Positions 2,415 through 52,757 of a stretch of DNA of 64,000 nt are shown here, piece after piece. Source of the stretch: Flavobacteriales bacterium (GTDB lineage: Bacteria; Bacteroidota; Bacteroidia; Flavobacteriales; Flavobacteriaceae); assembly GCA_016777325.1 (NCBI GenBank), contig JADHRQ010000001.1, forward strand, positions 62,001 through 126,000. Reading direction: 5' to 3'. Position 1 is the stretch's first letter; each line of letters begins with the position of its first letter. The notes beneath the pieces are model-generated. The model did not search any database and was not told the DNA's origin. It saw nothing but the letters and a program-made list of their open reading frames with translations. The position numbers and the translations under genes were made by a program.

Positions 2415-3053
2415 CTAAGGAGACAAAAGATTATGTTCCCATTTGTCATTAATTAAATTTGATATAACCCTATTGTGAAGCCTGTTTTCTCTTCCTTGCC
2501 AAAATTCAATTTCATGAACAAATATTTCAATCCCCCCCCAATGAGCTGGTCTTTTAAGATTAGAGTTTTTATTTTTTTCTAAGAATTTATCATGTCTATC
2601 TAACAACTCATCATAATTTGATATAATTTTACTTTGGTCTGAAACTATTGCACCTACTTGACTAGTGAAGGGCCTAGATTTAAAATATATATCTGAATAT
2701 TTTTCTGATGTTTTCTTAGCAATACCTTTAAAAATGACTTGTCTTTCTAAAGGAGCCCAATAAAAGGATGCACAGATTTTTGGATTATCATTTATTGCTA
2801 ATCCCTTTTTACTTTGATAGTTTGTGAAAAATATTAAACTTATATCTCTAATCTCCTTAAGTAAAACAACCCTTGAGGAAGGAAAATTGTTATTATCACT
2901 TGTAGAAACGGTCATAGCATTTGATTCGATTATTTCGTCAGATTCTTCTGCATCCTTAAACCATTTTTTAAAAAAATCCATAGGATTATCACCAATATCG
3001 TTTATACTTAAAGAATCCTTATCGTACAATTTCCTGTGATTAAATAATTTCAT
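2415..3053 (-). CDS. pdxH: Pyridoxamine 5'-phosphate oxidase
   Basis: PdxH-like sequence, including PSSRVVLLKE, FFTNYQSKKG, FYWAPLERQVIFKG and EFWQGRENRLHNR. Confidence 0.93.
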   Translation of the reverse strand: MKLFNHRKLYDKDSLSINDIGDNPMDFFKKWFKDAEESDEIIESNAMTVSTSDNNNFPSSRVVLLKEIRDISLIFFTNYQSKKGLAINDNPKICASFYWAPLERQVIFKGIAKKTSEKYSDIYFKSRPFTSQVGAIVSDQSKIISNYDELLDRHDKFLEKNKNSNLKRPAHWGGIEIFVHEIEFWQGRENRLHNRVISNLINDKWEHNLLSP

Positions 3054-3993
3054 TATTCGTTAATTGAAAATTCATTTTTGAAGCAAGTAAATATATTATA
3101 GCCATTCTTATTGCAACACCGTTCTCTACTTGATCTAAAATAAGAGAATTATTTGATTCCACAATGTCGGAAGTAATCTCAACGCCCCTATTAATTGGTC
3201 CAGGATGAAGAATCAGTATATCTTTTTTGATCTTATTTAATTTATTAACATCTAAACCAAAAAGCATTGAATACTCTCTATTATCAGGAAAATATGATTT
3301 AAGCATTCTCTCACGTTGAACCCTAAGAACATTTACAGCATCACACCATTTTAATGCTTTAACAACATCCGTTTCAATTGTTACATTAAGCTTTTCTATA
3401 TCTTTAGGGAGAAGACTCAAAGGACAAGATAATTTTACATTTGCACCTAATAGATTAAGTGCATATATATTTGACAAAGCAACTCTAGAATGGATAATGT
3501 CACCAACAATTAAAATATTCTTACCATTCAGATCTTTTAAGTTTTCATATAATGAAAATGAATCTAATAAAGCTTGTGTTGGATGTTCATGAGCTCCATC
3601 TCCTGCATTTATAATACATGAATTAGTTTGTTGAGATAATAGTAATGAAGATCCTGGATTAGGATGTCTTAAAACTATCATATCAACTTTCATAGCTAGT
3701 ATATTATTAACTGTATCAATTAATGATTCACCTTTATTAACTGATGAAGAGGAACTTGAAAAGTTAATTATATCTGCTCCTAATCTTTTTTCTGCTAATT
3801 CAAAAGATATTTTGGTTCTTGTACTATTTTCAAAAAATAAGTTAGCAATTGTAATATCACGCAATGTTGGAACCTTTTTTATTGGTCTATTTATAACTTC
3901 TTTAAAATGAGATGCAGTTTTAAATATTAAACTTATGTCATTTTCATTTAAAGACTTAATACCTAAAAGATGGTCAACACTTAGTTTATTCAT
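3040..3993 (-). CDS. pyrB: Aspartate carbamoyltransferase catalytic subunit
   Basis: FENSTRTKISFE and HPTQALLDSFSL motifs; adjacent to pyrR. Confidence 0.95.
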   Translation of the reverse strand: MNKLSVDHLLGIKSLNENDISLIFKTASHFKEVINRPIKKVPTLRDITIANLFFENSTRTKISFELAEKRLGADIINFSSSSSSVNKGESLIDTVNNILAMKVDMIVLRHPNPGSSLLLSQQTNSCIINAGDGAHEHPTQALLDSFSLYENLKDLNGKNILIVGDIIHSRVALSNIYALNLLGANVKLSCPLSLLPKDIEKLNVTIETDVVKALKWCDAVNVLRVQRERMLKSYFPDNREYSMLFGLDVNKLNKIKKDILILHPGPINRGVEITSDIVESNNSLILDQVENGVAIRMAIIYLLASKMNFQLTNNEII

Positions 3994-7106: not shown

Positions 7107-9557
7107 TCAAATTACTTTAGGGTTTAATACTTTTCTGTTTGACATGGCATTATCAATAACTTGAGTCATAGAATCAACATATGTAAATTGTAATCCTTTA
7201 AGATATTTTTTATTAATTTCTTCAATATCTTTTTTATTATATGAACTTAGAATAATTTCTTTAATATTAGCTCTTTTAGCAGCTAAAATCTTCTCTTTAA
7301 TTCCTCCTACAGGTAATACTTTTCCCCTTAGAGTAATCTCACCAGTCATAGCAATGCTCTTTTTTACTCTTTTTTGTGTAAATAATGAAACTAAAGATGT
7401 TAAAATAGTTATACCTGCACTTGGACCATCTTTTGGAGTTGCTCCTTCAGGGACATGAATGTGTATGTTATATTTTGAATAGTCTAAGTCTTTATTAACT
7501 CCAATGATATTGTAGTTTGATTTTATATATTCAAGGGCAATTATAGCAGACTCTTTCATAATTTTACCTAAGTTTCCTGTAATTGAAAGATCACCCTTTC
7601 CATCTGAAATTGATGATTCGATAAATAATATTTCACCTCCAACAGAATTCCAAGCTAAACCTGTTACAACTCCTGCCACAGAATTATTCTCATATTTATC
7701 TTTAAAAAATTTTTTAGGACCAAGAACTTTTTTTAAATAGTTAACATCCGAAGTGTCATCAAGTTTAGATTTAGAAACTATATTTTTTGCTCTATTTCTT
7801 ATTAATTTAGCAATATGTTTTTCTAAATTTCTGACACCTGATTCTCTTGTATATCCAGTTATAATATCCTTTAATGTTTGATTGTTAATCTTAAAGTCAT
7901 TAATCTTCATTCCATGGTCTAATAATTGTTTCTTAATTAAGAATTTTGACGCAATTGAAGATTTTTCTTCTGTTGTATAACCAGATACATTTATCAACTC
8001 CATCCTATCTAGTAATGCTGGATGCATTGATGATAAGCTATTAGCAGTAGCAATAAACATCACTTTTGAAAGATCATATCCGATTTCCAAAAAATTATCA
8101 TGAAAAGAATTATTCTGCTCTGGATCTAACAACTCCAATAATGCTGAGCTAGGGTCACCTTGAGATCCACTAGAAACCTTATCTATCTCATCTAATACAA
8201 ATACGGGATTTGAAGTTCCTGATTTTCTAATACTTTGAATAATCCTACCCGGCATTGCACCTATATATGTTTTTCTGTGACCTCTAATTTCTGCCTCATC
8301 TCTTAATCCACCTAAAGATACTCTTACATATTCTCTATTAATTGACTTTGCAATAGACTTGCCAAGTGAAGTTTTTCCAACTCCAGGAGGTCCATACAAA
8401 CAAAGTATAGGAGATTTCATGTCACTTCTTAATTTAAGAACAGCTAAATATTCTATAATTCTTTTTTTGACATCTTCAAGTCCAAAATGATCTTTGTCTA
8501 AAATCTTTTGAGCTTTAGTCAAATCAAAATTATCTTCAGAAAATTTTTCCCAAGGTAAGTCAACTAATAAATCAAGGTAATTTCTTTGAACAGAATACTC
8601 AGCTACCTGAGAATTCATTCTTTTTAATTTTGATAGTTCTTTCTCAAAATGGACTTTTGTTTCGTTATTCCATTCCTTATTTTTTGATTTATTAATTAGC
8701 TCTTGTACATCTTCCTGATATGAATTATCTCCAAGTTCTTCTTGAATAGTCTTCATCTGTTGCTGAAGATAATATTCACGTTGTTGTTGGTCTAAGTCAT
8801 TCTTTACCTTAGATTGAATATCATTTTTTAGTGCAAGTTTCTCATATTCAACATTTAGAAACTTTAAACATTTAAGAGCTCTTTTTTCAACACTTATGCT
8901 TGATAGCATATCCTGCTTGTCTTTTATTGTAATGTTCATATTAGAACAAACAAAATTTATTAAAAATGTAGAACTATGAATATTTTTTATTGCAAATGAA
9001 GCCTCAGAAGGAATATTAGGATTCTCCTTAATAATCTTTAGAGCTATATCTTTAATAGCATCTATTGTTGCTGAAAATTTACCATCTGATTTTTTTTGAC
9101 TCCTGTCTGAAACTGGATCTATAGTTGCCTGAATATATGGATCAGTTTTTACTATAGATTTTATTTTAAATCTTTTTTTACCCTGAATTATAACTGTTGT
9201 GTTTCCATCTGGCATTTTTAAAACCCTTAATATTTTAGCCACAGTTCCAATACCATAGATATTATCAACAGTTGGGTTTTCTATTGTAGAATTTTTTTGA
9301 GCTACAACACCAATTAATTTATTTGATTTGTTTGCATCATTAATCAATTTAATTGACTTGTCTCTACCAGCATTAATAGGTATAACAACGCCTGGAAACA
9401 AAACATTATTTGTTAATGGTAATATGGGTAAAACCTCTGGAAGACTTTCTTTCTCGAGTGCTTCTTCGTCCTCAGATGTCATTAATGGAATGAATTCTGA
9501 CCCTTCATCAAGATCATCAAATGACATTTTGTCTATATTATTAAAAATGATACTCAT
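7107..9557 (-). CDS. lon: ATP-dependent protease La (Lon)
   Basis: LPLTNNVLFPGVVIPI N-domain, GPPGVGKTSLGKSIA, DEIDKV, and C-terminal GPSAGI catalytic motif. Confidence 0.97.
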   Translation of the reverse strand: MSIIFNNIDKMSFDDLDEGSEFIPLMTSEDEEALEKESLPEVLPILPLTNNVLFPGVVIPINAGRDKSIKLINDANKSNKLIGVVAQKNSTIENPTVDNIYGIGTVAKILRVLKMPDGNTTVIIQGKKRFKIKSIVKTDPYIQATIDPVSDRSQKKSDGKFSATIDAIKDIALKIIKENPNIPSEASFAIKNIHSSTFLINFVCSNMNITIKDKQDMLSSISVEKRALKCLKFLNVEYEKLALKNDIQSKVKNDLDQQQREYYLQQQMKTIQEELGDNSYQEDVQELINKSKNKEWNNETKVHFEKELSKLKRMNSQVAEYSVQRNYLDLLVDLPWEKFSEDNFDLTKAQKILDKDHFGLEDVKKRIIEYLAVLKLRSDMKSPILCLYGPPGVGKTSLGKSIAKSINREYVRVSLGGLRDEAEIRGHRKTYIGAMPGRIIQSIRKSGTSNPVFVLDEIDKVSSGSQGDPSSALLELLDPEQNNSFHDNFLEIGYDLSKVMFIATANSLSSMHPALLDRMELINVSGYTTEEKSSIASKFLIKKQLLDHGMKINDFKINNQTLKDIITGYTRESGVRNLEKHIAKLIRNRAKNIVSKSKLDDTSDVNYLKKVLGPKKFFKDKYENNSVAGVVTGLAWNSVGGEILFIESSISDGKGDLSITGNLGKIMKESAIIALEYIKSNYNIIGVNKDLDYSKYNIHIHVPEGATPKDGPSAGITILTSLVSLFTQKRVKKSIAMTGEITLRGKVLPVGGIKEKILAAKRANIKEIILSSYNKKDIEEINKKYLKGLQFTYVDSMTQVIDNAMSNRKVLNPKVI

Positions 9558-9571
9558 AAGATGTTATTACA

Positions 9572-9585
9572 GTCATTTTGTCATA
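9572..9585 (-). promoter_or_regulatory. Candidate heat-shock-type motif upstream of lon (TATGACAAAATGAC)
   Basis: Closely resembles the TATGACAGAATGTCA palindrome upstream of dnaK in this window. Confidence 0.4.
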
Positions 9586-9648
9586 AACTAAAAACAATTA
9601 AATATTAATTGACTAGTTACAACTATTAAATATATATAAGGACAAAAG

Positions 9649-10968
9649 CTATGCCAACTTGTTTTTATCTATTCGAGGAACTCTTGTTAGTAAAATAGCC
9701 CCTAAGAAGAAGAAAAACATAAATATTATGACAGAAAATCTAACTGAACCTGTGACCTGCGCAGCAATGGCATAGAAAAGCATACCAAATACTATTCCTA
9801 TTTTTTCTGTAACATCATAAAAACTAAAAAATGAGGTTGTATCCTTGGTATCAGGAATAAATAAAGAAAAAGTAGCTCTAGCGATAGGTTGAGTTCCACC
9901 CATTAATAGACCTACTAGCCCAGCAATCAAATAAAATTCATTAGGAGTATTAATGTAATACGCATAGAGACATACAGCGCCCCATAAAAAAATAGCAAAT
10001 GTTAAAATTAAAATATTGCCAAACTTTTTAGCTAGTCCTGTAAACAAATAAGCACCTCCAATAGCAACAATTTGAATAAGCAAAATGCTAATAATAAGAC
10101 CTGATGTTTGATCAGAACCTGTCCAATCAATTTCATTTACACCAAAATAAGAAGCTATGTATAGAACTGTTTGTAAAGAGAATGAAAAAACAAAAAATGC
10201 TAATAAAAACCTTGTAAACCTTTTACTTGATCGAATAATTTTATATACATTTTTCAATTCTTTAAATCCATTCCATATAATATTTTTTGGAACCTTAACA
10301 CCTTTATTACCTCTTGGCAGATGATAAAAAGAATACTGACTAAAACCAAGCCACCAAACACCAACAATTGCAAAAGAAAACTTCATGGCGTATATCTCAG
10401 ATTCAAATCCAAATGTTTCATGAAAATTAATCATTATAAGGTTTATTAAAAGTAAAATTACACTTCCAATATAACCCATAGCAAAACCTCTAGCACTAAC
10501 GCTATTAGTTTGTTTTGAAAATGTTATATCTGTTAAATATGAGTTATAATAAACTAAACTCCCCCAATAGCCTATTAATGCTAAAACATAAAAAAATAAA
10601 CTAATTTCAATCGTTTCTAATTCAAACCAATATAAACTTATACATGAAAGAGATCCCATATACACAAAGAACTTCATGAATATTTTTTTATTACCAATAT
10701 AATCTGCAATACCACTTAATAAAGGTGAAAGAAAAGCAATAATTAAAAATGAAATACCAGATACTGAACTAATTAAGGTGTCTTTATTAATATTCAAATT
10801 AAATAATAATACACTGTTAGTGTCAGAAAAAATGTATTGAGAATAATAAATCGGAAAAATAGCAGAAGATATGACTAAAGAATAAACAGAGTTAGCCCAA
10901 TCATAAAGACTCCAAGCACCTATTAGTTTTTTACTACCTCTAGGATGGTCAGTTTTTTTTTTAAACAT
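9649..10968 (-). CDS. MFS transporter, UMF1/Atg22-like family
   Basis: Many hydrophobic helices; GAWSLYDWANSVYSLVISSAIFPIYY N-terminus typical of the UMF1 family. Confidence 0.85.
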   Translation of the reverse strand: MFKKKTDHPRGSKKLIGAWSLYDWANSVYSLVISSAIFPIYYSQYIFSDTNSVLLFNLNINKDTLISSVSGISFLIIAFLSPLLSGIADYIGNKKIFMKFFVYMGSLSCISLYWFELETIEISLFFYVLALIGYWGSLVYYNSYLTDITFSKQTNSVSARGFAMGYIGSVILLLINLIMINFHETFGFESEIYAMKFSFAIVGVWWLGFSQYSFYHLPRGNKGVKVPKNIIWNGFKELKNVYKIIRSSKRFTRFLLAFFVFSFSLQTVLYIASYFGVNEIDWTGSDQTSGLIISILLIQIVAIGGAYLFTGLAKKFGNILILTFAIFLWGAVCLYAYYINTPNEFYLIAGLVGLLMGGTQPIARATFSLFIPDTKDTTSFFSFYDVTEKIGIVFGMLFYAIAAQVTGSVRFSVIIFMFFFFLGAILLTRVPRIDKNKLA

Positions 10969-46417: not shown

Positions 46418-48325
46418 TTAATCTTCTTTAACCTCTTCAAAATCAACATCCTGAACATCGTCACCCTTTGAATCATTATCAGAAGCAGTATCACCAGCGC
46501 CTTCTGGTTTAGCTTCACCTTCAGCTTGAGCTTTATACATTTCTTCTGACGCGTTTTTCCATGCTTCATTGATTGTGTTTAAACTTTCATCAATCTTATC
46601 AAGGTCTTTAGATTCATGTGCTTTTTTCAAGTCTTCCAATGCTGCTTCAATTGGATTCTTTTTATCATCAGACAATTTATCTCCAAAATCTTTAAGTTGT
46701 TTTTCAGTTTGGAATATCATTTGATCTGCACTATTAAGCTTGTCAACCTCTTCTTTTGCTTTTTGATCAGCATCAGCATTAGCTTCTGCCTCTTTTTTCA
46801 TTTTTTCAATTTCTTCTTCAGTTAAACCAGAAGAAGCTTCAATCCTAATATCTTGAGATTTATTAGTTGCTTTATCTAATGCACTTACATTAATAATTCC
46901 ATTAGCATCAATATCAAAAGTGACCTCAATTTGAGGAGTACCTCTTTGAGCTGGAGGAATTCCATCTAAATGGAACCTTCCAATTGTCTTATTATCTTTT
47001 GCCATTGGTCTTTCTCCTTGTAAAACATGAATTTCTACAGAAGGCTGATTGTCTGCCGCTGTAGAAAAAATCTGAGATTTTTTAGTTGGGATAGTTGTAT
47101 TAGACTCTATAAGCTTAGTCATAACATTACCCATTGTTTCAATACCTAATGATAAAGGTGTTACATCAAGAAGAAGAACATCTTCTACATCTCCAGAAAG
47201 AACCCCTCCTTGAATAGCAGCTCCAACAGCAACAACTTCATCAGGATTTACTCCTTTAGATGGTTTTTTTCCAAATAAAGCTTCAACTTCGTTTTGGATA
47301 ATAGGAATTCTAGTTGATCCTCCAACTAAAATTACCTCATCAATATCTTTTTTTGTTAGACCAGCATCTTTAAGTGCTTTTTTAACAGGCTCCATAGATC
47401 TTTTGACCAATGTATCAGATAATTGCTCAAACTTAGCTCTGGTTAAAGTAGTTACAAGGTGTTTTGGACCAGAAGAAGTAGCAGTTACATATGGCAAGTT
47501 AATTTCAGTCTGTGCTGACGAAGAAAGCTCAATTTTAGCTTTTTCAGCTGCTTCTTTTAATCTTTGAAGAGCCATAGAATCATCTCTTAGATCAATTTGT
47601 TCGTTATTTTTAAACTCTTCTGCTAAGAAGTCTATTATTACTTGATCAAAATCATCACCACCTAAGTGGGTGTCTCCATTAGTTGATAATACTTCGAATA
47701 CTCCATCACCCAGCTCTAAAATTGATATATCAAATGTACCACCTCCAAGATCATAAACAGCTATCTTTTTATCTGTTCCTCCTTTGTCCATTCCATATGC
47801 CAATGCTGCAGCAGTTGGCTCATTTATTATCCTTTGAACTTTCAATCCTGAAATTTCACAAGCCTCCTTAGTTGCTTGTCTCTGAGAATCATTGAAATAT
47901 GCAGGGACAGTAACAACAGCTTCTGTTACAGTTTGACCAAGATAATCTTCCGCAGTTTTCTTCATTTTTTGAAGTACCATGGCAGATAATTCTTGTGGTG
48001 AATACAATCTTCCATCAATATCTACTCTAGGTGTATCATTATCACCTTTGACAACTTTGTAGGCAACAGTTTTAACATCATTAGATGACTCCGAGTACTT
48101 ATTACCCATAAATCTTTTTACAGATGCAATTGTTTTTTCAGGATTAGTAACGGCCTGTCTTTTAGCAGGATCACCTACCTTGATTTCCCCATCTTCTACA
48201 AATGCAATTACGGATGGTGTAGTTCTTTTTCCTTCAGCGTTAGGAATAACAACTGGTTCACTACCCTCCATAACAGAAACACATGAATTTGTTGTTCCTA
48301 AATCAATTCCAATAATTTTACTCAT
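46418..48325 (-). CDS. dnaK: Chaperone protein DnaK (Hsp70)
   Basis: [21 protein letters not shown] start (ATG 48325), [29 protein letters not shown]-track start 48352 is an upstream TTG. Confidence 0.98.
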
Positions 48326-48375
48326 AATATATTTTTTAAATAATAAAGACAACCATTATGCCATTTTAATTTAAG

Positions 48376-48390
48376 TGACATTCTGTCATA
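48376..48390 (-). promoter_or_regulatory. Candidate heat-shock regulatory palindrome TATGACAGAATGTCA upstream of dnaK
   Basis: Perfect inverted repeat TGACA-NNN-TGTCA, 51-65 nt upstream of the dnaK ATG; similar sequence upstream of lon. Confidence 0.5.
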
Positions 48391-51596: not shown

Positions 51597-52757
51597 ATGA
51601 AAAATCAAGTCCAAATATTTGACACTACTTTGAGAGATGGAGAACAAGTGCCAGGTTGTAAACTTGATACTAAAAGTAAATTAATATTAGCCGAAAGAAT
51701 TGATATTCTTGGTGCAGATATTATAGAAGCCGGATTTCCAATATCAAGTCCAGGAGACTTTAAATCAGTTGTAGAAATTTCAAAAATTGTCAAAAATGCA
51801 TCAGTTTGTGCACTTAGCAGAGCAAATGAAAGAGATATTGATATTGCGGCTGAATCATTAAAAGATGCAAAAAAACCAAGGATCCATACTGGAATAGGAA
51901 CATCTGAAATTCATATTAGACATAAATTTAATTCTAACAAAGAATCTATTATTGAATTAGCTAAAAAATCAGTTTCTCATGCTAAAAAATATGTTTATGA
52001 TGTTGAGTTTTATGCTGAAGATGCGGGCAGAACTGAAAATGAATTTCTTGCTAAAGTATGTGAAGAAGTAATAAAGTCTGGTGCTACAGTTTTAAATATT
52101 CCTGATACTACTGGATATTGTCTGCCTGAAGAGTATGGTGATAAAATTAAATTCCTAATTAATAATGTTAATGGAATTGAAAATGTCACTATTTCATGTC
52201 ATTGCCACAATGACTTAGGACTTGCTACAGCAAATTCTATTTATGGTGTAATTAATGGTGCTAGACAAATTGAATGTACTATTAACGGTATAGGTGAAAG
52301 AGCAGGAAACACATCACTGGAAGAAGTTGTTATGATATTAAAACAACATTCAGATCTAGGTCTTTACACCAACATTGACTCAAAGCTTCTTAATGATATA
52401 AGTCAAAAAGTTTCTGACTTAATGGGAATGCCAGTTCAACCAAATAAAGCTATTGTTGGTTCCAATGCTTTTGCACATAGCTCGGGAATTCATCAGGATG
52501 GAGTAATTAAAAAAAGAGAAACTTATGAAATAATTAATCCTTCTGATGTAGGGGTTGATAAATCTTCTATAGTTTTGACTGCAAGAAGCGGAAGAGCTGC
52601 ACTAGCTTTTAGGATGAAGGAATTTGGAGTAAATTTGAGCAAGAAAGAGCTTGATGATGTTTATAATGAATTCTTAATTGTAGCTGATAAAAAGAAAGAA
52701 GTAACCGAATCTGATTTTCCGATTATGCTTAAAAATCAAAATATTAAATATGGCTAA
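51597..52757 (+). CDS. leuA: 2-isopropylmalate synthase, short form without regulatory domain
   Basis: [57 protein letters not shown]; only 386 aa. Confidence 0.9.

Follow-up and report, generated by a model that had tools for sequence, protein, structure and literature searches.

Sigma-54 control of proteostasis genes is already known. In Flavobacterium psychrophilum, mapped transcription starts carry a sigma-54 (SM4) −24/−12 motif at groESL, lon, dnaK, grpE-dnaJ, and htpG, which belong to one co-expression cluster (B254), and the alternative sigma factors of this species are one sigma-54 and seven of the ECF type, with no rpoH listed in the parts of the article available to us (PMC9723704). 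Those parts mention three PF00158 proteins, leave the activator open, and make no mention of a palindrome. Chaperones and ATP-dependent proteases are also enriched among sigma-54 predictions for Flavobacteriia and Bacteroidia; these regulons were predicted from a promoter matrix, and the available portion of that work gives no activator site for chaperone or protease genes (PMC12316311). HrcA/CIRCE and sigma-32 likewise coordinate the expression of dnaK, groESL, grpE, and lon-type genes, but the promoters described here are of the sigma-54 type and no CIRCE was found in the clade. As far as the accessible text of PMC9723704 allows a comparison, the regulon that we describe covers the same proteostasis genes as the sigma-54 promoters of F. 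psychrophilum, to which we add a proposed operator, a spacing rule, an intragenic copy of the operator in lon, and a candidate activator, the sigma-54 enhancer-binding protein (EBP) that we call EBP1. Our search of the open-access literature returned no description of the operator or of its phasing on the helix, nor of the lon copy within the gene or the assignment of EBP1; given that most subscription papers were outside this search, the novelty is provisional.

The window, that is, the whole 64-kb stretch of DNA analysed, belongs to an incomplete 809-kb MAG (G000), and genome-wide statements rest on pattern searches. The original prediction held that a 14-mer by lon was a near-copy of a palindrome by dnaK, matching it at 12 of 14 positions in the same orientation about 39 kb away, and proposed a shared stress regulon. 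Sequence comparison bore out the coordinates and the 12/14 identity; the 14-mers are 38.8 kb apart, each on the coding strand of its downstream gene, and both genes were correctly named, judging by the scores in Table 1. The second arm of the lon copy, which had been given as TGACA with one difference from TGTCA, reads TGACT and therefore has two. Given that the arm consensus is TGWCA, TGACA in place of TGTCA is in itself no defect, and this variation is tolerated across the regulon.

Table 1. Predicted regulatory features and genes at lon and dnaK (window coordinates).
Feature	Position	Strand	Remarks
14-mer TATGACAAAATGAC	9572..9585	-	by lon
14-mer TATGACAGAATGTC	48377..48390	-	by dnaK
lon gene	7107..9557	-	PF05362, PF02190; TIGR00763 916 bits, over cut-off
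lon sigma-54 -24/-12 element TGGCATAGCTTTTG	9643..9656	-	predicted start near 9630
lon leader site TGACAAAATGACT	9571..9583	-	core of the lon 14-mer; ~+53
second lon site AGACAAAATGTCA	9522..9534	-	inside lon codons 8-12; ~+102
dnaK gene	46418..48325	-	PF00012; TIGR02350 976 bits, over cut-off
dnaK site TGACAGAATGTCA	48376..48388	-	centre ~-45 from predicted sigma-54 start
dnaK sigma-54 -24/-12 element TGGCATAATGGTTG	48350..48363	-	12 bp downstream of site

The bare 14-mer match is weak evidence, as near-copies are equally frequent in shuffles. While exact TATGACARAATGWC occurs in the MAG only at the lon and dnaK 14-mers, allowing up to two mismatches in the 14-mer gave 3 matches against 3.9 expected, with no excess over chance, and TGWCANNNTGWCA with at most one mismatch (≥9/10) gave 4 matches in the 64-kb window against 7.7 expected, with no excess over shuffles. 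The third hit of the 14-mer in G000 (one mismatch; C2, L003) adjoins no chaperone gene and was taken as chance, as was the window site at 52184, which lies within a coding region. The other three window sites fall at lon (9522, 9571) and dnaK (48376), with ~0.05 expected in 400 bp, a post hoc count; independent genomes were therefore used as evidence. The palindrome match at lon and dnaK is confirmed as real at the level of sequence because both palindromes are conserved in other genomes. Coincidence in AT-rich DNA would fit the window counts, which do not exceed those of shuffles, but we give this reading practically no credence in view of that conservation and of reversed controls close to zero, together with the location at chaperone genes, the synonymous constraint, and the helical phasing detailed below.

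At dnaK, TGACA-N3-TGTCA (TGACANNNTGTCA) lies upstream of the gene in 23/23 of the genus genomes read, with a single-base deviation in one of them, and is shared by many further genera of the Flavobacteriaceae. The order is the same throughout, with the site followed after 12–13 bp by a sigma-54 −24/−12 element, TGGCAtaatnnTTG; this spacer range refers to the genus and to the Flavobacteriaceae genera matched by the strict composite search described below. The ATG start is at 48325, the TTG listed for the open reading frame at 48352 being upstream of it, and transcription is predicted to start near 48337. Both the lon and dnaK promoters fit the −24/−12 form TGGCAY-N5-TTG.

The original prediction had missed the sigma-54 promoters that accompany the sites, a concrete candidate regulator, and two features of the arrangement at lon. 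Given the predicted start of transcription, the lon site lies in the leader, downstream of the lon promoter, and it is accompanied by a second copy in the coding sequence. The sigma-54 element upstream of lon was found in 21/21 genus genomes read and is present in form in nine other genera read. The leader site is found again, mostly as TGACANNNTGACY, in genus-mates and in other genera, and the coding copy, which also recurs across genera and is a perfect TGACANNNTGTCA in several others, lies 49–51 bp from it in most genomes. Codon choice in the coding copy is strongly skewed: in 21/21 genus genomes its Asp codon is GAC, a choice made at 30/269 of the other Asp codons in those reads (Fisher P = 2e-18, uncorrected for relatedness). 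The corresponding figures for other genera are 8/9 and 19/112, and the Ser codon is TCA in 21/21 genus genomes. On this codon evidence, the copy in lon codons 8–12 is kept by synonymous constraint, the pattern expected of a DNA site maintained within a gene. Flagellar genes controlled by sigma-54 (FlrC, FleQ, FlbD) likewise have activator sites that lie beyond the transcription start; here, by comparison, the gene encodes a protease and one copy is within the coding sequence. Separately, the −24 element of lon (window 9649–9657) coincides in part with the final codons and the stop of the Atg22/MFS gene upstream, and may constrain the C-terminus of its product.

The regulon was delimited by composite searches for site plus sigma-54 element, in 25 genus genomes (as TGWCANNNTGWCA-N8-38-TGGCAY-N6-TG), in 298 genomes of the order, and in 393 of the phylum, with the reversed pattern as control. 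All 42 genus matches precede dnaK or groES (reversed control, 0). The strict composite gave 38 matches in the order, comprising 31 at dnaK, 5 at htpG, and 2 without a chaperone gene (reversed control, 1), and 16/21 phylum matches outside the order precede dnaK, htpG, hsp20, or groES (reversed control, 1), with htpG and hsp20 assigned by reading the translated sequence. Site plus sigma-54 element thus falls almost only on dnaK, groES, htpG, and hsp20. Among the remaining five phylum matches, one (L350) precedes a gene for a SecA-like protein and four are unexplained; the matches rejected for lack of a downstream chaperone gene are L279, L283, L330, L342, L344, and L348. The strict composite was absent from family f5 genomes and from nearly all g33 genomes, even though EBP1 is kept in them.

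In the source genome, groES is preceded by TGTCATCATGTCA, 33 bp, and TGGCATAGTTTATG, and most genus-mates also carry a site and a sigma-54 element there; the groES −24/−12 element has the variant form TGGCAYNNTTNATG. At grpE-dnaJ, read in two genus-mates, TGACATTCTGGCA is followed after 11 bp by TGGCAAAAAAATTGC. The original prediction would have failed had the motif not been enriched upstream of other chaperone or protease genes; that check was run, enrichment was seen, and a shared proteostasis regulon, with site and sigma-54 element at groES, dnaK, htpG, hsp20, and grpE-dnaJ, is strongly supported. Terminator-like hairpins that several genera carry between secG and groES (AATGCCAGC...TGACAAGCTGGCATTTTT) were rejected; they contain TGACA and produce false site calls. 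Upstream of groES in two ~600-kb genomes (L266, L267) we observed TGTCATAATGACA and TGCCATAATGACA, whose arms are inverted with respect to the consensus and which are followed by TGGCATGTTTTTGG. At two distant groES loci, L346 and L347, CIRCE (0 and 1 mismatch) occurs together with the TGWCA/sigma-54 composite, suggesting dual control there.

The candidate activator EBP1 (C16:14545-15804 of G000, 420 aa) has a PF00158 AAA+ domain, a lid domain, and a C-terminal Fis-type helix-turn-helix (HTH_8), and its sequence carries the GAFTGA loop; the domain search found neither a receiver nor another sensor domain ahead of the N-terminal AAA+ domain. It is single-copy in 292/298 genomes of the order (E <1e-90), and its recognition helix is >90% conserved across 35 orthologues, which matches the conserved operator. 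RpoN (PF04552) is present in G000 and in 24/24 genus-mates. The gene order in the source genome is miaB-EBP1-lptE-TPR-secG-groES-groEL, and EBP1 with groES downstream was found in many Flavobacteriaceae and in Dyadobacter, a linkage absent from the Bacteroidales loci fetched. PspF-type EBPs resemble EBP1 in having an N-terminal AAA+ domain, a C-terminal Fis-type HTH, no receiver, and stress genes as targets. However, EBP1 scores well below the PspF equivalog cut-off (TIGR02974, 262 bits against 443.6), and differs from PspF in a linker, conserved in part, that precedes the HTH and in its predicted targets, which are cytosolic chaperones. EBP1 is the likely binder of TGWCA-N3-TGWCA, an inference made without binding or expression data. 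A TGACANNNTGKCA-like site was also observed upstream of miaB-EBP1 in the source genome (L152, topA-miaB gap, within 2985–3215) and in G033 (L154, ~3319), with no obvious sigma-54 element near it; autoregulation is possible. The closest named relatives of EBP1 are Flavobacteriaceae, and the order includes ~300-kb and ~600-kb genomes, from which we read the source as a streamlined flavobacterium, probably a marine one. Among the small genomes, Sulcia-like and Blattabacterium-like types are inferred from their size and gene content.

The spacing between site and −24/−12 element was analysed in the composite matches at chaperone genes, taking one per genus and gene. Although 8–38 bp were allowed, spacers fell at 11–13 (30 cases), 20–23 (9), and 31–33 bp (3), with a best period of 10.25–10.5 bp and a vector length of 0.93. 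A uniform null was rejected when only distinct gene-spacer pairs were counted (0/200,000 draws as extreme), and distinct spacers alone gave P = 0.004. Spacers in whole helical turns imply that the bound protein must face the polymerase. This bears on a different reading, in which a repressor, HrcA-like or other, binds the palindrome and blocks the sigma-54 promoter until stress, with EBP1 acting elsewhere. The upstream copies are indeed near enough to the −24 element for a repressor to interfere there, and two distant groES loci also carry a CIRCE element, the only ones among 433 loci. Nevertheless, whole-turn distances out to 33–42 bp would be odd for occlusion, the lon copies lie at ~+53 and ~+102, and the groES site is missing where RpoN and EBP1 are missing (see below). 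An HrcA operator was rejected for this clade, given that CIRCE was absent from the 64-kb window (≤3 mismatches) and from flavobacterial loci. We therefore consider a repressor unlikely, if still conceivable.

The alternative that EBP2, a receiver-AAA+ protein, is the activator, alone or in a mixed oligomer with EBP1, draws on its position after grpE-dnaJ in two genus-mates (L158, 4065–5228; L167, 3004–4170). Against it, the domain search detected no HTH in EBP2, and the ~300-kb symbiont G051, in which EBP1 is the only strong PF00158 match, lacks a second strong EBP and yet keeps the groES site; we regard EBP2 as an improbable candidate.

The seven ~300-kb symbionts also relate the site to EBP1 and RpoN. 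Both proteins are kept in G051, G272, and G299 and absent from G228, G240, G276, and G291, the same four that lack both site and promoter at groES. The groES site is perfect, with TGGCATA, in G051 and G272 and degenerate in G299. Given that the four losses come from two genera, they represent at most a few independent events. The lon gene of G051 retains TGGCATAACTATTG. As a separate observation, a site matching at 9/10 positions, TGACTTTTTGTCA, lies a long way upstream of dnaK in G051 (L431), together with no more than a weak GGGCATGATGATTG; sigma-54 control of this gene may be in decay.

We consider it probable, with binding, activation, and trigger all inferred, that TGWCA-N3-TGWCA is the operator of EBP1, which would switch on proteostasis genes from RpoN promoters under proteotoxic stress. 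Its predicted targets would be dnaK, groESL, grpE-dnaJ, and lon, joined in relatives by htpG and hsp20. EBP1 dimers would occupy the operator, which at dnaK, groES, htpG, hsp20, and grpE immediately precedes the −24 element and keeps to one face of the helix; at lon, the two copies 49–51 bp apart, in the leader and first codons, may act from downstream by looping. Under proteotoxic stress, EBP1 would become active, oligomerise into an AAA+ ring, and remodel and open the sigma-54 closed complex. The trigger could be unfolded protein or a titrated chaperone; given that EBP1 lacks an N-terminal sensor domain, control may be exerted by a partner, perhaps a titrated chaperone, although this is a guess. 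Several points weigh against this model: a site centre at ~−45 is closer than in textbook enhancers, downstream sites are uncommon, EBP2 could take part, the groES site of G299 is no more than degenerate although RpoN and EBP1 are kept there, f5 and nearly all g33 genomes lack the strict composite, and 5/21 phylum matches lack a chaperone gene. With moderate confidence, we extend the model to EBP1 as a sensorless sigma-54 activator that acts as master regulator of the heat-shock response throughout the phylum Bacteroidota, with a phased, promoter-proximal operator and intragenic lon enhancers, retained from free-living relatives to symbiont-like genomes of ~340 kb and disappearing where RpoN does.

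Among gut and marine bacteria, the Bacteroidota are a major group, and the activator of their sigma-54 heat-shock promoters is unassigned in the searchable literature; an operator, a spacing rule, and a single candidate gene make the question of its identity directly testable. In addition, lon provides a case of a putative activator site maintained within coding sequence, and sigma-54 still seems to drive groESL and lon in some of the smallest genomes.
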